Part shown: piece after piece, positions 2,321 to 45,389 of the stretch
Numbering within the stretch: position 1 is the first letter of the stretch
Layout: every line of letters starts with the position of its first letter
Origin: Limnohabitans planktonicus II-D5
GTDB lineage: Bacteria > Pseudomonadota > Gammaproteobacteria > Burkholderiales > Burkholderiaceae_C
Reading direction: 5' to 3'
Length of the DNA stretch: 64,000 bases
Assembly: GCF_001270065.2 (NCBI RefSeq)
Contig: NZ_LFYT02000006.1
Location: forward strand, 62,001 to 126,000
The notes under the pieces: model-generated
The model's database searches: none
The model's input: the letters and a program-made list of their open reading frames with translations, nothing else
What the model was told of the DNA's origin: nothing
Made by a program: the position numbers and the translations under genes

Positions 2321-4105
2321 ATGCACGCCACCACCTACAGCATCGAAGCCGCCGACCTTCACGCGCACCTGTTTCGCGTCACCTTGACCATCCGAGAACC
2401 GGCGCTGCAGCAGACCGTGTCGCTGCCCGTCTGGATACCCGGCAGCTACCTCGTTCGGGAGTTTTCAAAAAACCTTCAAAAACTGCAAGCCCGGCAAGGC
2501 CGCCGCACTGCGCCCATCGAACAAATGGACAAATGCACCTGGCTCATCACTTGCCGCATGGACGAGCCCCTGGTGCTGAGCTACGAGGTTTATGCCTTTG
2601 ACAACTCGGTGCGCACCGCCTGGCTGGACACGCAACGGGGCTTTTTCAACGGCACCAGCCTGTGCCTTCGGGTCCACGGTCAAGAGCATCAACTCCAGCA
2701 CTTGCAGCTGCACCCCGTCAAAGGCCAACCCAGCTGGCAAGCGGCCACGGGCCTGACGCCCGTCAACACCGACAAACGAGGCTTTGGCCTGTACACCGCC
2801 ACCGACTATGACCACCTCGTGGACAGCCCGGTGGAGTTGGGGGCCTTCTGGTCGGGAAGCTTCAAGGCCTGCGGCATTCCGCACCGCTTTGTGGTGGCCG
2901 GGGCACTGCCCTCGTTTGACGGCGACCGGTTGTTGGCCGATACGCAAAAGATTTGCGAAACACACATCCGTTTCTGGCACGGCCAAGGCAAGCAGGCAGC
3001 CAGCAAAGCGCCACACAAAGATTACGTGTTCATGCTCAACGCCGTGCACGACGGCTACGGCGGGCTGGAGCACCGCAACAGCACCGCGCTGATCTGCAAC
3101 CGCTCTGATCTGCCGCGCCAGACCAGCCCGCACACGGGTGAGGGGTACACCACCTTGCTGGGCCTGATCAGCCATGAATACTTCCACACCTGGAACGTCA
3201 AGCAACTGCGCCCCGACGCCTTTGCCCGCTATGACTACACACAAGAAAACTACACCCAGCTGCTGTGGTTCTTTGAAGGATTCACGAGTTACTACGACGA
3301 CCTGCTGCTGCGCCGATCAGGGCTGATCGACGACGCCACTTACATTCAACTGCTGGGCAAAACCATCGCCCAAGTGCAGCAAACGCCGGGCCGCCAGGTG
3401 CAGACCGTGGCGCAAGCGAGCTTTGATGCCTGGGTCAAGTATTACCGGCAAGACGAGAACACCCCCAACGCCACCGTAAGTTACTACACCAAAGGCGCTC
3501 TGGTGGCGCTGTGCCTGGACCTGACGCTGCGCCAGGAATTCACGGCCGAAGGTCACACGCTGGACAGCGTGATGCACGGCTTGTGGAAGCGCTGCAAAGC
3601 CGGACCGATGCGTGAACTAGACCTGCTGGATGAACTGCAAGCCCTCACAGGCCGCAGCTGGCAGCCCGAAATCAAGGCCTGGGTCCACAGCACCACCGAC
3701 TTGCCGCTGCGCGATCTGCTCAGCGCACAAGGCATCGAAGTCAGTGCCGACACATCGCCCATGGCGCAACGCCTGGGACTTCGTGTGATCGAGACCGGAG
3801 CCAGCGTGCAGATCAAGGCCGTGCTGCGCGGCAGCGCCGCTGAAGCGGCGGGACTTGCCGCGGGGGATGAGTGGCTGGGCCTTGACGTGGGCCCTGTCAA
3901 AGGTGGCAAGGCGCTAGGCTACAGCTGGCGGCTGTCCAAACTGGACGATCTGCCTGCCCTGCTGGGGCGCGAACGCCAACTCGTGGCCCTGGTGTCGCGC
4001 GACAAACGGCTGCTGCGCCTGCCACTGACAGTGCCAGCGCTTGCCAGCCAATGGAAACTGAGCGTGCCTGCAGACCGCAAGGCAGGCCTTTGGCCTGCCG
4101 TTTGA
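2321..4105 (+). CDS. M61 glycyl-aminopeptidase family metallopeptidase with C-terminal PDZ-like domain
   Basis: A 594-residue member of peptidase family M61. The zinc site is visible: HEYFHTWN at residues 285-292 supplies two histidines and the catalytic glutamate, and WFFEGFTSYY (about 316-325) supplies the downstream glutamate (E319). The C-terminal 120 residues (VRGSAAEAAGLAAGDEW) look like a PDZ domain, as in other bacterial members. No signal peptide is evident, so it is probably cytoplasmic. It follows mpl on the same strand. Its physiological substrate is not known; the family is named for slow cleavage of N-terminal glycine or alanine. Confidence 0.9.
   Translation: MHATTYSIEAADLHAHLFRVTLTIREPALQQTVSLPVWIPGSYLVREFSKNLQKLQARQGRRTAPIEQMDKCTWLITCRMDEPLVLSYEVYAFDNSVRTAWLDTQRGFFNGTSLCLRVHGQEHQLQHLQLHPVKGQPSWQAATGLTPVNTDKRGFGLYTATDYDHLVDSPVELGAFWSGSFKACGIPHRFVVAGALPSFDGDRLLADTQKICETHIRFWHGQGKQAASKAPHKDYVFMLNAVHDGYGGLEHRNSTALICNRSDLPRQTSPHTGEGYTTLLGLISHEYFHTWNVKQLRPDAFARYDYTQENYTQLLWFFEGFTSYYDDLLLRRSGLIDDATYIQLLGKTIAQVQQTPGRQVQTVAQASFDAWVKYYRQDENTPNATVSYYTKGALVALCLDLTLRQEFTAEGHTLDSVMHGLWKRCKAGPMRELDLLDELQALTGRSWQPEIKAWVHSTTDLPLRDLLSAQGIEVSADTSPMAQRLGLRVIETGASVQIKAVLRGSAAEAAGLAAGDEWLGLDVGPVKGGKALGYSWRLSKLDDLPALLGRERQLVALVSRDKRLLRLPLTVPALASQWKLSVPADRKAGLWPAV
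4081..4103 (+). terminator. Possible hairpin terminator at the end of the M61 gene
   Basis: GGCAGGC (4081-4087) and GCCTGCC (4093-4099) form a perfect 7-bp stem with a 5-base loop, followed by GTTT. It overlaps the last codons of the peptidase gene and faces the convergent hydrolase gene. The T-run is poor, so this is a weak call. Confidence 0.3.
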
Positions 4106-19712: not shown

Positions 19713-20336
19713 ATGCAAACACAACACACCCCCGACACCCTCGAAGATTATTGCGGCACTACCTACGCAGCCAAATTACTTGGACTGTCGGTGGGGACGA
19801 TCCAGACACTCGTTGAAAAAAATGAGCTCCAAGCCTGGAAAACCCAAGGTGGGCATCGCCGCATCTCGATGCCCTCCATTCGTGAGTACCAGCGCAAGCA
19901 CAATATGCTGATGTCTCCGCTCGACAACCGAGAAGGCCGACTCAAAGTGCTGCTGGTGGAAGACGATGCAGTCACAAGGGACATGCTTCGCGATTTCTGC
20001 AACCGTTGCGAAATGCCTGTGGACTGCACCGCCATGTCCTCCGGCCTCGAAGCTTTGATCGACATCTCCAGCATTCAGCCCGACGTCATGATCGCTGACC
20101 TCAACATGCCGGGCGTAGACGGATTTGAACTTTTGCGCACTCTGCGCCAAACCTCCCAGTTCAACCGCATGACTTGCTTGGTGATTTCCGCCTTGACGCA
20201 GGAAGAAATTGCAGCTCGCGGCGGCCTGCCCGAAGGCACCATCTTCATGGCCAAACCGATCAACATGCAGTGGTTCAACGGATTTTTCACTGCCCTGATG
20301 GCCGGGCGAAAAGTTGAACTGCAAGCGACAGCCTGA
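19713..20336 (+). CDS. Response regulator with N-terminal excisionase-type HTH and C-terminal receiver domain
   Basis: A 207-residue protein of unusual domain order. Residues 15-62 form an excisionase/MerR-like DNA-binding helix-turn-helix (TTYAAKLLGLSVGTIQTLVEKNELQAWKTQGGHRR). Residues 78-195 form a CheY-like receiver with acidic pair E83/D84, phospho-acceptor D129 (ADLNMPG), S159 and K181. Most response regulators place the DNA-binding domain after the receiver. No histidine kinase is adjacent, so it is an orphan. A strong terminator follows at 20405. The DNA upstream is distinctly AT-rich, as expected for a promoter, but no clear box was assigned. Confidence 0.85.
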   Translation: MQTQHTPDTLEDYCGTTYAAKLLGLSVGTIQTLVEKNELQAWKTQGGHRRISMPSIREYQRKHNMLMSPLDNREGRLKVLLVEDDAVTRDMLRDFCNRCEMPVDCTAMSSGLEALIDISSIQPDVMIADLNMPGVDGFELLRTLRQTSQFNRMTCLVISALTQEEIAARGGLPEGTIFMAKPINMQWFNGFFTALMAGRKVELQATA

Positions 20337-32624: not shown

Positions 32625-33850
32625 ATGAACACCCCTGCACATTGGATCGGCTTGCTGACCGCCTTGGGGGTGGGCTTGCTGATCGGCGTGGTGCGAGAGC
32701 GCCGGCACGAGCCTCATGTCTCCAAGGCTGGCACGCGAACGCACGCACTGGTGGCGATGCTCGGCTATGTGAGCTGGAGTTTGGGCACTTGGCCATTTGT
32801 GGCCACGGTCTTGGTGGTCGGTGCGCTGGTGATCGGTTGCTATCAGGCCACCGCCCGAAGCGACCCTGGCCAGACGGGCGAGGTGGCATTGCTGGTGACC
32901 CTGATGCTGTCGGCGCTGGCGCAACAAAATCCTAGCTTGTCTGCGGCTCTCGGCGTGCTGGCTGCGGCGCTGCTGCATGCCAAACACGCTTCGCAGCGCA
33001 TCAGCCGTGTGTTGATCACGGATCAAGAATTGCAGGACGCCCTGATCCTGGTTGCCGCAGCACTGGTGGTCATGCCGCTGCTGTCAGACCAAGCGATGGA
33101 CCCCTGGGGCGTGTTGCAAGCCACTACGCTGTGGCGCATCGTGGTGCTGGTCATGGCGGTGGGCATGTTGGGTCATGTCGCACAGCGAGCGCTGGGGGGC
33201 GTTGGGGCATGCCACTGGCGGCATTCTTTTCGGGTTTTGTGTCTTCCACTGCCGTGGTCGTCAGCACGGGGCAGCGCGTGCGTGGCGGGCACAGTGATGC
33301 ACTACCCGCAGCAGCTTGTGCCCTGCTGGCCAATCTGGCGTCGTTGACGTTGTTTGCCGGGGTGCTGGGGGCCGCCTCACCGCCCCTGCTGGTGGCCATG
33401 CGCTGGCCACTGGTCTTGGCGGGCCTGGGCTTGCTGCTGGTGGTGGTGCTCGCCTTGCGTCGCATCGAAGGCGATGGTGTTGAGACGCCACCAGGACACG
33501 CTTTCAAACTGACCCATGCATTGGGCATGGCCAGCATCATTGCCTTGATGTCCTTGCTCGCCGCCTAGCTGCAACATGTTTTTGGCGATGTGGGTGTGCT
33601 GGTGGCTGCCCTGTGTGTGGCTTTGGTGGAAGTGCATGCCGCAGCCGCCAGCATTGCGCAACTGATTCATTCAGGCGGCATGGTGCCTGAGTGGGCGCAC
33701 TGGGCACTGTTGGCCGTGCTGGCCTCCAGCGCAGTGGTCAAAACAGCTCTGGCGATGGCCAGCGGCGGGATGCGCTACGGCCTGACCGTAGGACTGGGAT
33801 TCGTGGCCATGGTGGCGGGCGGCGCGGCAGGTGTGATGTGGGTCGTCTGA
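32625..33850 (+). pseudogene. MgtC/SapB-family (DUF4010) membrane protein, broken by frameshift and stop
   Basis: The reading frame begins MNTPAHWIGLLTALGVGLLIGVVRERRH, typical of MgtC/SapB-DUF4010 membrane proteins. At 33194-33199 a run of six G residues shifts the frame: after AQRALGG the homologous continuation RWGMPLAAFFSGFVSSTAVVVS is in another frame, restored if a seventh G is added. That frame then meets an in-frame TAG at 33566-33568 (a CAG to TAG change would explain it), after which LQHVFGDVGVLVAAL continues to the natural stop at 33850. Two independent lesions favour a true pseudogene over one sequencing error. About ten hydrophobic segments would be present in the intact protein. 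Confidence 0.85.
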
Positions 33851-33902
33851 AGCTCGCAAAGGGTGTGCTGTGGCGTAAGCGATATCTCTGTAAACCGCCC
33901 AA

Positions 33903-33959
33903 TTGACTGCGGCTGAGACGCTATATACAATCGCCATATACATTTCCTTGGAGGTCACC
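33903..33959 (+). promoter_or_regulatory. vapBC promoter and putative autoregulatory repeats
   Basis: TTGACT (33903-33908) and TATACA (33924-33929) could serve as -35 and -10 boxes, though the 15-base spacing is short. ATATACA occurs twice as a direct repeat (33923-33929 and 33936-33942), a layout suited to binding of the VapBC complex. GGAGG precedes the vapB start at 33960. Confidence 0.45.
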
Positions 33960-34193
33960 ATGTCCATCGGCACTGTTTTTGTCAACAACCGTACCCAGGC
34001 CGTTCGTCTGCCTTTGGACGTGCGTCTACCCGAGGGTGTCCAAAAGGTTGAGATACGCGTCAAAGGTAACGAGCGCGTCATCTCCCCCTTGGGCCAAACT
34101 TGGGACAGCTTCTTTCTGGGTGGCCCCACCGTGAGCGAAGACTTCCTGCCCGAGCGCGCTACCCAGCACCAGCCGGAGCGGGAGGCACTCTGA
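33960..34193 (+). CDS. vapB: VapB-type antitoxin (AbrB/SpoVT fold)
   Basis: A 77-residue antitoxin. The N-terminal swapped-hairpin DNA-binding motif reads VFVNNRTQAVRLPLDVRLPEGVQKVEIRVKGNERVISP, followed by a flexible tail (SWDSFF-like DSFFLGGP) that occupies the toxin active site in the family. It represses its own operon and neutralises VapC. The ATG at 33960 is led by GGAGG. Its TGA shares a base with the vapC start codon, so the two are translationally coupled. Confidence 0.92.
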   Translation: MSIGTVFVNNRTQAVRLPLDVRLPEGVQKVEIRVKGNERVISPLGQTWDSFFLGGPTVSEDFLPERATQHQPEREAL

Positions 34194-34603
34194 TGCTGCG
34201 TTACCTGCTGGACACCAACATCGTCATCTACGTGTTGAAGCGGCGACCTGTCGAGGTGCTTTCCACTTTCAACGCCAACGCCAGCCGCATGGCCATTTCC
34301 TCCATTACCTTCGCCGAACTTTTGCACGGTGCGGAGAAAAGCAGCCGCGTGAGCGAGAACTTGGCCACTGTTGAAGATTTTTGCAGTCGCTTGGAAGTTC
34401 TGCCCTATGGCCCCAAGGCCGCGCAGCATTACGGAGCCATTCACGCCGCCTTGGAAAAACTCGGCCAACCTATCGGTGTGAACGACATGCACATTGCAGC
34501 GCACGCTCGCAGCGAAGGCTTGGTGCTGGTGACGAATAACATGGGGGAGTTCGCACGGGTGCCAGCTATGGAAGCAGAGAACTGGGTTCAAACAACGCAG
34601 TAA
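34193..34603 (+). CDS. vapC: VapC-type PIN-domain ribonuclease toxin
   Basis: A 136-residue PIN-domain toxin. The acidic catalytic set is present: D7 in LLDTNIVIY, the glutamate in ITFAELLHGAE, the aspartate in GVNDMHIAAHA, and the conserved T/S-N in LVTNNMGEFARVP. VapC toxins cleave tRNA or rRNA when VapB is lost. It overlaps vapB by one base. It sits at the left edge of an AT-richer patch with attC-like sites, on the opposite strand to the other cargo genes, and toxin-antitoxin pairs are frequent stabilising cargo in integron arrays. Confidence 0.93.
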   Translation: MLRYLLDTNIVIYVLKRRPVEVLSTFNANASRMAISSITFAELLHGAEKSSRVSENLATVEDFCSRLEVLPYGPKAAQHYGAIHAALEKLGQPIGVNDMHIAAHARSEGLVLVTNNMGEFARVPAMEAENWVQTTQ

Positions 34604-34726
34604 TTGATGAGTTGTCGCGATAGTTGCGGCGGGCCAGCAGCCGACCTTTGGAGTGATTGCCACGCTGACAGCTTAAGGCTGATACCGTTCAGGCGATTAG
34701 CGGTTAAGCAGGCATTCAAAATGCGC

Positions 34727-34812
34727 GTTTACGTTGGCTCTGTGCGGCACGCATCAAATGCTGCAATGCGGAAATTTGCTGCTGCGTGTCCGCGAAGAGC
34801 AACATGTTAGCC
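34727..34812 (-). other. attC-like integron recombination site 1 (downstream of the cupin gene)
   Basis: The right end GTTAGCC (34806-34812) fits the attC R-box form GTTAGVC, and the preceding GAGCAACAT matches the conserved attC arm. The left end GTTTAC looks like RYYYAAC with one A missing. Between them GGCTCT pairs with AGAGC and GCGGCACGCA pairs with TGCGTGTCCGC, leaving one extrahelical base as in genuine attC hairpins. On the minus strand the site begins 22 bases after the cupin stop codon, the usual cassette layout. Confidence 0.6.
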
Positions 34813-34834
34813 CGCAGATGTACTTGCCGTGTAC

Positions 34835-35200
34835 TTATGTCGGGCGCAACTGATCTGCTAACGAGCGAGTCTTCTCTGTAACCGTATTGCCTGTGTGAAG
34901 CGTGGTCTTCTTTTCAATGAGCATGATGAGGCACTCATGCTCTGCTAGAGGGTTGTGACGTACACCCTTGGGAACAACGAACATCTCGCCCTCCCCAATT
35001 TCAACAGTCCGATCCTCCATCTCGATTTTCAGATGTCCTTTGAGCACGAGAAACAGTTCATCCTCATTTTCATGGCTATGCCATGCCAAAGAACCGCTGA
35101 CTTTGGCAACCTTGATGTACGAATCATCGACTTCTGCAATGACGCGCGGTGACCATAATTCAGTCAGAGATGCTGCGATTTGTTTTGGCGTTGTGGGCAT
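34835..35200 (-). CDS. Cupin-domain protein
   Basis: A 121-residue single-domain cupin. The two cupin motifs are clear: SLAWHSHENEDELFLVLKGHLKIEM (metal-binding His-His-Glu) and EIGEGEMFVVPKGVRHNPLAE (His). No signal peptide. Such small cupins bind metals or small molecules and their functions vary. Base composition is lower in GC than the flanking urease and redox genes. It lies between an attC-like site downstream and the GFA gene upstream on the same strand, consistent with cassette cargo. An eight-G tract lies in the gap upstream of it. Confidence 0.85.
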   Translation of the reverse strand: MPTTPKQIAASLTELWSPRVIAEVDDSYIKVAKVSGSLAWHSHENEDELFLVLKGHLKIEMEDRTVEIGEGEMFVVPKGVRHNPLAEHECLIMLIEKKTTLHTGNTVTEKTRSLADQLRPT

Positions 35201-35304
35201 AAAAAGACCTTGTTTGCGGTTTGGTGCTTCGCTTGAGGGATGGGTTAGTAGGGGGGGGATGCGCGTGACCTGTATGGGGCAACTGCATGTGAAAAATGTC
35301 GCCC

Positions 35305-35709
35305 TCATGCTTTCCCGCTGCACTCGTGGTCGGACTTCACATGCCACCATCGCGGGCGACGTGATACATAGGAGTGATACGTTGGCGCGAACTCCTTCAA
35401 GTGCGGTTTATCGAAAATGCCCGTGACCAATGCGACGGTTGGCTCGTCGTCAATTGCTCCAATGGTGCTGCCGCAGGTGCTGCAGAAGGCACGGCTGGAA
35501 TACGAGGAAGACCGCCAGATTGAAGGGCTACCGCCTGGACCCACCCACTCGACGTTCTGTGCGGGGAACTCAACCCATGTAAGGGTAAGCGAACCAGAGT
35601 GGTTGCGGCAGCTTTCGCATGAGCATGTATGCGGCTTCCCAGGCTCGCCGGTTGCGCGGAATCTGATCGAGCCGCAAATGCAGCCGCCTTCGTATTGCTT
35701 GGTCTTCAT
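35305..35709 (-). CDS. GFA-family (glutathione-dependent formaldehyde-activating-like) zinc protein
   Basis: A 134-residue protein of the GFA fold. Zinc-binding cysteines are in GGCICGSIRF, TCSCESCRNHSG and FCSTCGSTIGA, giving the usual structural and catalytic zinc sets. Only a few members act on S-hydroxymethyl-glutathione; most are uncharacterised. The ATG at 35709 is 36 bases downstream (in its reading direction) of the attC-like site at 35745-35788, as expected for the first gene after an integron junction. GC content is lower than that of the flanking chromosome. Confidence 0.87.
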   Translation of the reverse strand: MKTKQYEGGCICGSIRFRATGEPGKPHTCSCESCRNHSGSLTLTWVEFPAQNVEWVGPGGSPSIWRSSSYSSRAFCSTCGSTIGAIDDEPTVALVTGIFDKPHLKEFAPTYHSYVSRRPRWWHVKSDHECSGKA

Positions 35710-35744
35710 TTCTAGACTGCGACAGAATGAATGGTGTTTGATTC

Positions 35745-35788
35745 GCCTAACGTAATGCACACCCCAAGGCGTGCGGGATATGTTGGGC
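35745..35788 (-). other. attC-like integron recombination site 2 (upstream of the GFA gene)
   Basis: GCCTAAC (35745-35751) and GTTGGGC (35782-35788) match RYYYAAC and GTTRRRY and are near-perfect inverse partners. TGCAC and GTGCG form an inner stem. On the minus strand the site ends with GTTAGGC, 36 bases before the GFA start codon. At 44 bases it is shorter than ordinary attC sites (about 57 or more), so it may be truncated. Confidence 0.5.
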
Positions 35789-35989
35789 TCTTCGAAAGAA
35801 ACTGTACATGAAAACCATCTGAGAATGGCTTGCAGCCTTGTTTACGGCAGTCTTACCTGAAACTCATAAAGGCAAAAAATGCCTACAAGTCACACAGACA
35901 CTCTTCAAGCAATTCTGACGACGAACAAGCCAGTTATTGGGATTTGGAACCCTCGTCGTAGGACCGCTATCGCTGAAATTCCGACGTCT
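35789..35989. other. Gene-less, AT-richer spacer between two attC-like sites
   Basis: With the flanking sites this makes a stretch of about 380 bases (35710-36089) without a credible gene. The roughly 200 bases between sites 2 and 3 have no start codon with a supported reading frame; an antisense-style open frame running into the acetyltransferase gene looks like a shadow. It has the size and setting of an ORF-less or decayed integron cassette. Confidence 0.45.
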
Positions 35990-36084
35990 ATGGAACGGCT
36001 CAAATAAGCTGACTACGGCCATTTGTAGAGCTTCAATGCAGTCCTGAAATCGAGTCAGTTTTCTGTGCGACTTTGCCGTTAGGC
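35990..36084 (-). other. attC-like integron recombination site 3 (downstream of the acetyltransferase gene)
   Basis: On the minus strand GCCTAAC begins six bases after the TAA stop of the acetyltransferase gene. The arms pair: AACGGC with GCCGTT at the outside and AACTGACT with AGTCAGCTT inside. The far end GCTTATTTGAGCCGTT follows the conserved attC arm up to the GTT cleavage point, but the last bases are CCAT instead of RRRY. Length is 95 bases, normal for attC. Confidence 0.6.
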
Positions 36085-36089
36085 GATCC

Positions 36090-36569
36090 TTAGAACGACG
36101 TCTTTTGCGCTGCATTCCTAGCCATGATGCTAACGAGCTCGCCATCCACCATGGACTGTTCCACTTCGTGCCACCCAAACCGTTCGTACAGTTTTTGTTG
36201 ATCCGGGGTGTAGAGGAAGAGCGTATGAATGCCCAGATCAATGCTCCGCTGGATACATTCATTGGTCAGGGCAGAGCCAAGGCCTCGCCCTCTTAAGGTA
36301 TTCAGTATGAACACCTCGCCAAGCCAATGCTCTTTGTCTTGGTGACCAGCAAGTTCAAAGAGTTTCACGCTCGCTGTACCAAGAAATTCGTTCATAGCGG
36401 ACAACGCCACCAATGTGAATGGTGGCTGTTTCAATTGCGCACCCGCCAGTAATCGCGCTTCAATGATCGGGAGCGAAGCCCACGGTGGGAAGTCGCTCCA
36501 TTCTTCGTGCAGGAGTTTCGCAATCTTTGCGATCAAATATGGATGGTCGGCCAAAGGCTCAATGCGCAT
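36090..36569 (-). CDS. GNAT-family N-acetyltransferase
   Basis: A 159-residue acetyltransferase. The acetyl-CoA-binding motif A is visible as WLGEVFILNTLRGRGLGSALTNECIQRS, followed by LFLYTPDQQKLYERFGWHEVEQ (motif B). The start MRIEPLADHPYLIAKIAKLLHEEW is the natural GNAT beginning, so ATG 36569 is preferred over a TTG 23 codons upstream; a convincing ribosome site is lacking. Substrate unknown. Lower GC than neighbours and an attC-like site directly after its stop codon suggest it arrived as a gene cassette. Confidence 0.88.
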   Translation of the reverse strand: MRIEPLADHPYLIAKIAKLLHEEWSDFPPWASLPIIEARLLAGAQLKQPPFTLVALSAMNEFLGTASVKLFELAGHQDKEHWLGEVFILNTLRGRGLGSALTNECIQRSIDLGIHTLFLYTPDQQKLYERFGWHEVEQSMVDGELVSIMARNAAQKTSF

Positions 36570-36783
36570 GACTTTGTGTAGTCCGTCGAGAAGACGGATA
36601 GCAAGTGTGTAGAGGAACGAAGGGTCTAATGGTACCAAGCGTTTACTTGGCAGAAGACATGACTAAGCGATTTCAACAAACCGAAAAGCCTTGGGATAAC
36701 GTAACGCTATGTTGATAGAACCCTGGATGTCTAGTTCCGCTGCAATGCCGACCTACACCATCAGCACCTCAAGATCAGCCACC

Positions 36784-37488
36784 TCAAATCGCCACCAACT
36801 GCTGAATATCCTTTTCCTTCATCTCACTGCCCGGCCCCCTGGCGATCACCTCGCCCCGCTCCATCACCAGATACTGGTCGGCCAGTTCTTCGGCAAAGTC
36901 GTAGTACTGCTCACACAGCAGCACCGCCATGCGCTGGCCTTGCAGGCCCACGTCGGCCAGTTGGCGGATCACGCGGCCGATGTCTTTGATGATGCTGGGC
37001 TGGATGCCCTCGGTGGGCTCGTCCAGAATCAGCAAACGCGGCTTGGCCGCCAGCGCTCGGGCAATGGCCAGTTGCTGTTGCTGACCGCCTGAGAGGTCAC
37101 CGCCACGGCGGTGCAGCATTTGTTTGAGCACCGGAAACAGTTTAAACAACTCAGGCGGGATCGGGGTGCCGCCGGGCTGCGTGGCCAGGCCCATCAGCAG
37201 GTTGTCTTCGACCGTCAGGCGAGCAAAGATTTCTCGGCCTTGGGGCACATAGCCAATGCCTGCTGCGGCGCGTTCGTAAGGCTTGGCGAGTGTCAGATCT
37301 TGGCCGTTCAGGCTCACTGTGCCGCTTTTGATCGGCACCAAACCCATGAGCGATTTGAGCAAGGTGGTTTTGCCCACGCCATTGCGGCCCAGCAGTACGG
37401 TGACTTGGCCTTGTACGGCGCTCAAACTCACATCGCGCAGGATGTGGGAGCCGCCGTAGTACTGATGGATGTTTTGAACTTCAAGCAT
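36784..37488 (-). CDS. urtE: Urea ABC transporter ATP-binding subunit UrtE
   Basis: A 234-residue ATPase of the LivF/UrtE type. Walker A GRNGVGKTT (34-42), the segment IGYVPQGREIFARLTVEDNL, signature LSGGQQQQ and Walker B LLILDEPTEGIQPSII are intact; the GIQPSII form is characteristic of UrtE rather than LivF. It is the last gene of the minus-strand urtABCDE operon. A pair of REP-like palindromes lies in the gap between it and urtD. Confidence 0.94.
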   Translation of the reverse strand: MLEVQNIHQYYGGSHILRDVSLSAVQGQVTVLLGRNGVGKTTLLKSLMGLVPIKSGTVSLNGQDLTLAKPYERAAAGIGYVPQGREIFARLTVEDNLLMGLATQPGGTPIPPELFKLFPVLKQMLHRRGGDLSGGQQQQLAIARALAAKPRLLILDEPTEGIQPSIIKDIGRVIRQLADVGLQGQRMAVLLCEQYYDFAEELADQYLVMERGEVIARGPGSEMKEKDIQQLVAI

Positions 37489-43670: not shown

Positions 43671-45389
43671 ATGGCCCACATCGACAAACGCGCTTATGCC
43701 GAAATGTTCGGCCCCACAGTGGGTGACCGGGTTCGCCTGGCCGACACGGCTTTGGTCATCGAGGTCGAAAAGGACTTCACCCTGCAAGCGGGCGGCTACG
43801 GTGAAGAAGTCAAGTTCGGCGGCGGCAAGACCATCCGCGATGGCATGTCGCAATCACAAAGGACTAACGCCGAGGGCGCGATGGACTGCGTGCTCACCAA
43901 CGCGCTCATCATCGACCACTGGGGCATCGTCAAAGCCGACATCGGTCTGCGCGGCAACCGCATTGCCGCCATTGGCAAGGCGGGCAACCCTGACACACAG
44001 CCGGGGGTGGACATCATCATCGGACCCGGCACAGAGATCATCAGCTGCGAAGGCCTGATCGTCACCGCTGGCGGCATCGACTCACACATCCACTTCATCG
44101 CGCCCCAGCAGATTGCCGAGGCCCTGGCCAGCGGTGTGACCACCATGCTGGGTGGCGGCACGGGCCCGGCCACCGGCACCTTTGCCACCACCTGCACACC
44201 CGGGCCCTTCAACATCGAGCGCATGATGCAAGCGGCCGATGCTTTTGCGATGAACATTGGTTTTCTGGGCAAGGGCAACGCCAGCTTGCCTGCCGCGCTG
44301 CACGAGCAAATCAATGCGGGTGCGATTGGCCTCAAGCTCCACGAAGACTGGGGCACCACGCCTGCGGCCATCGACAACTGCCTGAGCGTGGCCGAAGAAA
44401 CCGACACGCAAGTGGCCATCCACACCGACACGCTCAACGAATCGGGCTTTGTGGAAGACACCGTGGCCGCCTTCAAGGGCCGCACCATCCACACCTTCCA
44501 CACCGAAGGCGCAGGCGGTGGGCACGCGCCCGACATCTTGAAAGTGGTGGGCGAAGCCAATGTGCTGCCGTCTTCGACCAACCCCACACGCCCCTACACC
44601 ATCAACACACTCGACGAGCATGTGGACATGCTCATGGTCTGCCACCATCTGGACCCGGCGATTGCCGAGGACCTGGCCTTTGCCGAAAGCCGCATCCGCA
44701 AGGAAACGATTGCGGCCGAAGACATCCTGCACGACCTGGGCGCCATCAGCATGATGAGCAGCGACAGCCAAGCCATGGGGCGGGTGGGCGAAGTCATCAT
44801 CCGCACCTGGCAGACCGCGCACAAAATGAAGCAGCAGCGCGGCAGCCTGCCCGGCGACACCGACCGCCACGACAACGCCCGCGTGAAACGCTACATCGCC
44901 AAATACACCATCAACCCCGCCATCGCACACGGCATCAGCCATGAAGTGGGCAGCATTGAGGTGGGCAAGTGGGCCGATCTGGTGATCTGGAAGCCGGCCT
45001 TCTTTGGTGTCAAACCCGCCCTCATCATGAAAGGCGGCTTCATCGCGCTGGCCGCCATGGGCGACCCCAACGCGTCCATCCCTACACCACAACCGGTGCA
45101 CTACCGCCCCATGTTTGGCAGCTTTGGCGGTGCGCTGTCACGCGGCTCGCTGACCTTTGTCTCGCAAGCGGGTTGGCAGGCGGGCGTGGGTGCACGTTAT
45201 GGCCTGCAAAAAACCTTGTCGGCCGTGAAAAACATCCGCAAGGTGGGTAAGCGCGACATGATCCACAATGACTACGCGCCCCGCATGGAAGTCGATGCAC
45301 AGACCTATGCGGTGCGTGCCGACGGCCAACTGCTGGTGTGCGAACCGGCCACCAGCCTGCCCATGACACAACGCTACTTTTTGTTCTGA
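43671..45389 (+). CDS. ureC: Urease subunit alpha (catalytic)
   Basis: A 572-residue amidohydrolase that carries the two-nickel site. Visible are the nickel ligands HIHFIAPQ, the carbamylated lysine in [12 protein letters not shown] (about residue 222), [10 protein letters not shown], the flap segment [50 protein letters not shown], and the C-terminal YFLF. All key residues are intact, so the enzyme should be active. ureE starts 100 bases later, past a long inverted repeat. Confidence 0.98.

Follow-up and report, generated by a model that had tools for sequence, protein, structure and literature searches.

Clusters of attC sites lacking an integrase (CALINs) are by default reported by IntegronFinder 2 where at least 2 attC sites are found (PMC9024848). 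In Xanthomonas, such clusters are scattered away from the ilvD integron, with the integrase lost or eroding (PMC12444791), and attG insertion is described as the capture of a cassette at a secondary chromosomal site (PMC12901181, PMC12444791). We analysed 64,000 nt from Limnohabitans planktonicus II-D5 (the whole stretch is hereafter the window), in which a minus-strand run of three small genes (34835-36569), for a GNAT acetyltransferase, a GFA family protein and a cupin, lies next to the urea-uptake genes, between a urtE-like ABC transporter gene and a plus-strand vapBC-type pair. This block is very probably a decayed, off-site cluster of integron cassettes, a CALIN fossil whose integrase has been lost; decayed CALIN-type leftovers are an already known kind, and the locus is a worn new example. 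A CALIN-like origin had been proposed in an earlier reading of the sequence (the original prediction), and it is supported because relatives carry attC sites or arms: around the cupin gene in genus-mate G455, at a homologous site in G423, and with the GNAT and GFA genes of locus L161. The locus itself would fall below the IntegronFinder 2 reporting rule.

The block resembles CALINs in its one-direction cassette genes, in the attC remnants at gene ends, and in the lack of an integrase over cut-off in the genome. Unlike them, it has fewer than two sites detectable by R1, a covariance model of 55 attC sites from the family, and it shows damage to its right arms and to one R' box. The Xanthomonas clusters likewise lie at other loci with the integrase lost or eroding; their positions recur within species, whereas here, in a genus search scoring three candidate stretches per genome, DNA of the GNAT region was seen only in G010 (broken) and that of the cupin only in G455, at another place.

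We took as an attC site an R'' box (RYYYAAC) and an R' box (GTTRRRY) with an imperfect hairpin between them, in which L'' and L' pair. The original prediction named three attC-like hairpins at gene ends, and the three boxes are where it placed them, all on the minus strand: at 36084-36078, 5 nt past the stop of the GNAT gene (36090-36569, in an ORF that opens at 36638; Pfam Acetyltransf_1, E 2e-10); at 35751-35745, 35 nt before the start of the GFA gene (35305-35709; Pfam GFA, E 4.3e-20); and at 34812-34806, 22 nt past the stop of the cupin gene (34835-35200; Pfam Cupin_2, E 1.2e-13). The domains and the shared strand confirm the proposed cargo, as does its low GC, at 0.52-0.56 in 1-kb windows over the block and about 0.60 in the surroundings. 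Three hairpins, by contrast with three boxes, were not found. The R'' box GCCTAAC at 36084 has no recognisable right arm and no covariance match with R1. The second site is a weak candidate mini-attC of 44 nt (35745-35788, minus, GCCCAAC ... GTTAGGC), in which the R boxes pair, the L stem is short, and the fold on the plus strand has a z of -1.2. The third is probably a worn attC (34727-34812, minus) with R'' GGCTAAC, a bulged stem, and GTAAAC in place of R'; its fold is only somewhat above shuffles (z -1.6, with 14 of 200 equalling it). The identity of all three sites rests on homologues. Pairing the boxes at 36084 and 35745 as the ends of one long attC of about 340 nt was tried and dropped, since that stretch folds no better than shuffles (z -0.98).

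Three sites were also not the full count. A fourth attC remnant, missed earlier, probably lies at 35214-35250 (minus), with R'' TACTAAC 54 nt past the GFA stop; its right arm is absent, and the cupin start occupies the position where one would be expected. Read from 35250 to 35214 it resembles the attC left arm TAACCCCTCGCTCAAGCGGAGCGCCAAC, and it is matched, starting at the R'' box, by 33 of 133 library attC sites (best E 0.003). We rate it only probable because a stretch elsewhere in the window (3807-3847) has a better single E-value, and because a weight matrix, which places it third-best among left arms, is not significant alone. At the 5' edge of the GNAT cassette, ATTAGAC (36624-36630, minus), one change from GTTAGAC, may be a worn R' box. 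When the leaders of the window and of L150, where the GNAT homologue is 76% identical, were anchored by eye at ATTAGAC, only 2 of 500 shuffles aligned as well, and the 80 nt outside the anchor were no better than shuffles (323 of 500 as good); an unanchored local alignment of the upstream 200 nt was not significant (175 of 500).

Boxes of this kind could arise by chance within an ordinary acquired island of small genes, and their frequency favours that reading: GTTAGGC or its complement occurs three times in the 64 kb and 2.86 times in shuffles. Two of the three occurrences are here, at gene ends, but at this chance-level count boxes alone prove nothing, so that position and homology must carry the claim. 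A strict search for core pairs (45-160 nt, at most one mismatch) returned a single stretch of the window, 20273-20319, to which R1 gives 11.7 bits.

Homology is what makes the chance island very improbable. The cupin gene has a counterpart in G455 (L317) with 79.6% DNA identity over 34834-35201, almost exactly the ORF, within an array that has four scored attC sites (41.0, 35.1, 29.0 and 28.0 bits). The 29.0-bit site begins 21 nt past the cupin stop, compared with 22 nt in the window, and by eye an attC-like site ending in GTTAGCC lies 20 nt before the cupin ATG (it is not in the R1 list at E <= 1). Judged by this sequence context, the gene is an integron cassette between attC sites in G455.

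The site after the cupin gene in the window (34727-34812) aligns with the 30.3-bit attC of G423, whose array runs on to an integrase remnant and hisF, and also with sites in G464 and G017. All four have the R'' TAAC and most of the stem in common, and where the window has GTAAAC at the R' position the others have GTTAGGC, GTTATAC and GTTAAAA. With filters off, R1 gives the G464 site 11.5 bits and leaves the G017 site unlisted, so both are worn too; the window site itself receives 5.7 bits, over its inner part only. No pair with compensatory changes was found in this alignment, and the argument therefore rests on homology, not covariation.

The third line against a chance island comes from L161, a Burkholderiales metagenome-assembled genome locus with the order GNAT (46% identical), an attC left arm over its stop, GFA (83% identical to the window protein over 129 aa), and a second left arm; a 22-bit site lies further on, and the right arms after GNAT and GFA are missing there too. 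In L150, GCCTAAC lies within the last codons of the GNAT ORF, and in L215 a 38.5-bit attC precedes GFA by one gene. Inward of AGGCG, which forms the inner part of the R' box and lies 38-39 nt before the ATG, the GFA leaders of the window, L161, L214 and L216 resemble one another, with 0-1 of 300 shuffles doing as well in each of the six pairs. Outside AGGCG they are unlike in five of the six pairs; the anchor, chosen by eye, favours the inside.

Several observations count against a cassette origin. The window and L161 leaders, the remaining pair, are alike outside AGGCG as well (3 of 300), the leader is absent from the five other GFA loci viewed (L215, L217-L220), and the stretch between 36078 and 35788 is unexplained. 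Most of the homologues examined lie outside an attC context, which also suits the chance island. Run on 14 of 63 GNAT loci, R1 exceeds 13 bits in L161 alone; among 7 GFA loci it does so in L215 alone, and none of 12 cupin loci, drawn from 19 in other family genomes, exceeds 11 bits. Since the genome is in draft form, an integrase could lie in a gap, and the best model for a tyrosine recombinase of contig C8 is the integron integrase, though at 81 bits of the 265 required. Finally, R1 with default filters detects none of the sites reported here, its one match in the window (14.2 bits) lying elsewhere.

Low covariance scores also support a chance island, and the original prediction had itself proposed that sub-threshold scores at all three sites, together with the same gene block in relatives without attC structure, would tell against it. 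The first outcome was in effect obtained. The second was not: most homologues lack attC structure, but the G455 cupin and the L161 GNAT-GFA pair have attC sites or arms. With filters off, R1 gave ten matches in the window, of which 35745-35788 is the top one at 17.9 bits (E 0.04 over the window), a weak score; the runner-up (14.4 bits) is elsewhere. The rule of at least 2 attC sites is therefore not reached with R1, which is not IntegronFinder's own model, there being no site with default filters and this one with filters off.

An integron integrase over the TIGR02249 cut-off occurs in 131 of 299 family genomes; 145 attC candidates were picked by rule from 40 of their integron regions, 11 of which yielded none, and R1 was built from 55 sites. 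In the R1 alignment 91.4% of pair cells are standard, with 207 doubly changed cells compared with 83 in shuffles. In five further regions, kept out of the training set (L112, L123, L124, L126, L128), all 39 rule-picked sites were recovered among 51 matches of 32.7-65.9 bits, plus one wrong-strand match of 13.3 bits. The array sites on C8, a contig of the window's own genome, reach 51.4, 21.2 and 17.5 bits, so wear is general there.

We return to the decayed cassette cluster and to where it may have come from. No integron integrase over the TIGR02249 cut-off was found in the 4.87-Mb, 152-contig draft; the 11 weaker matches reach at best 82.9 of 265 bits. Other attC matches in the genome are on C8 (up to 51.4 bits), C1 (48.8), C7 (43.4), C16 and C22, and these are lower bounds, since 150 of 2626 candidates were scored and the 51.4-bit site was missed by that search. 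At E <= 0.05, attC matches occur in 19 of 60 genus genomes, this one included. Integrase matches at E <= 1e-40 occur in 4 of 90 genus genomes; two are over the cut-off and none spans the whole profile. Integrase remnants lie beside hisF (named by likeness to the HisF of C22) in G491, G423 and G455, three viewed of the four. Among 30 hisI loci in the genus, hisF is within 47 nt in 15 and 0.8-1.0 kb away in two, and the remaining 13 have no hisF in the available stretch, some being ended by contig ends. In the window's own genome, cassettes lie beside hisF on C22 and beside hisI on C8; C22 starts with the gene of an IS91 transposase (254 bits), and by eye the same coding stretch opens C8. Because of the remnants beside hisF and the cassettes at hisF on C22 and at hisI on C8, the old sedentary integron of the genus probably lay between hisF and hisI. 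As to a complete integron, with intI and attI beside the array, no integrase over cut-off is present here, and no attI search was made.

The history we favour would run as follows. The stretch 34727-36630 would be a run of former gene cassettes, GNAT, GFA and cupin, each once followed by its attC, captured and lined up by an integron integrase since lost from the genome. After that loss the attC sites would have decayed, with R' turning to GTAAAC, right arms disappearing and one site shrinking to 44 nt. The cluster would be one of several away from the hisF-hisI integron. Any function of the present sites in integrase recombination is putative. If so, cassettes stay recognisable after deep decay, as fossils that a covariance search misses and that homology to live cassettes of genus-mates identifies, and the lineage would trace an old sedentary integron from integrase remnant to scattered, eroding cassettes. 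This raises the question of how many ordinary-looking small accessory genes arrived as cassettes.

The run may have reached its place beside urtE through an integrase or by other means. The urtE gene is common to sister species, with homology stopping by about 36724, and the other flank is common to G018 and G014 up to 33841; between the two, by eye, these have a TonB receptor gene or 9.7 kb of other genes. Only 94 nt separate an MgtC-type gene (to 33851) from urtE (from 36777) in G485, and 78 nt separate vapBC (to 34611) from urtE (from 36776) in G454, both without cassettes; in G459 there are 739 nt of other DNA in between. The original prediction's alternative of off-target insertion thus gains an unoccupied place in G485 and G454, but the spacers there lack homology to the window's, and the insertion point is not readable to the base. 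As an observation on the spot as a whole, 33851-36777, from the MgtC/DUF4010-type gene to urtE, is variable and holds other cargo in G018, G014 and G459.

We lean slightly toward an integrase having inserted the cassettes directly at a secondary (attG) site while one was active, a route compatible with a cassette origin. Like several others, the cluster is found outside the inferred hisF-hisI home, and genus-mates have the place without cassettes; attG insertion is moreover an established reaction in the accounts introduced above. Against it, the break is unreadable in G485 and G454, as described, and the sequence past the last R' box resembles that past the G017 homologue of this site, which argues against a fresh genomic junction at that point. 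Insertion of cassettes at attG was reportedly treated by Loot et al. 2024; cassettes are outside an integron in both cases, and the attG site here is only a candidate.

Equally compatible with a cassette origin, and a less probable though still reasonable route, is that a piece of array moved without integrase, by IS-mediated, homologous or illegitimate recombination. Among 89 other genomes, a genus search in which only three candidate stretches were scored per genome found DNA of the GNAT region in G010 alone, with a broken gene and with the cupin and GFA genes missing, and cupin DNA in G455 alone, at another place. In G010 a short GCTGA repeat marks the join between the vapBC module and the 3' region of GNAT. 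The different DNA at the place in G018, G014, G459, G485 and G454 fits this route as well, as do the IS91-type elements within other arrays of the genome; no IS91-type end was found in the window with the end patterns used, no general IS search having been made.

Those IS91-type elements, which include a tyrosine recombinase gene, occur in the window's own genome on C1 (L136, L006), C7 (L135), C22 (L138), C8 (L003) and C55 (L002), and also in L320 (G423), L256 (G455) and L252 (G454). From the two ends and the genes between them we infer one element. All six distinct hairpin ends (at most 4 mismatches) are followed by GTTAGGC, GTTAGAC or GTTAGGT, and all four distinct other ends by GTCCAAC, two of these continuing as attC left arms; the hairpin ends score 21.8-24.5 bits as attC. 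The element may target attC or may itself be cassette-like, and the shared boxes may belong to the element, not to the target. The titles and abstracts listed in a literature search held no report of an IS91-type element abutting attC core boxes. A broader scenario, in which the genus is largely without the hisF-hisI integrase, its cassettes are dispersed, and the element, whose end resembles an attC hairpin and which adjoins attC core boxes, helped to break up or move the arrays, is rather doubtful. The integrase-like matches on C8 and C55 were considered as a frame-broken intI and rejected, the C8 protein being far below every cut-off. The C8 gene is split, close to eight consecutive T, into two frames that overlap (L009:683-872), and it adjoins a stretch that by eye codes the same peptide as the C22 IS91 transposase; within the extent of its contig, the C55 copy has its end in the same frame. 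The split may reflect a shared frameshift or programmed slippage.

The vapBC-type pair (33960-34603, plus) consists of a MazE-type antitoxin (23.2 bits, below Pfam's 24.7) and a PIN domain protein. It is a separate neighbouring unit outside the cassettes, as judged by comparison of sequences, because vapBC, together with its flank as far as about 34687, is also present in G302 and G460, with no cassette matches nearby. The module with its conserved 3' flank (33847-34687) is found at several places in genus-mates, and G007 has two copies. The ABC transporter gene (36784-37488) is named urtE from position and sequence, the domain scan covering the ABC domain only. Comparison of the block with plasmids gave three weak matches to single genes, and a viral-contig scan with GNAT as query gave no relative. 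Over 34000-37000, Rfam at E <= 5 returned one snoRNA match at chance level. At the gathering threshold only one Rfam family was found in the whole window: 5'_ureB_sRNA, a family known from Helicobacter, with a match of 98 bits at 43832-44121 (minus).

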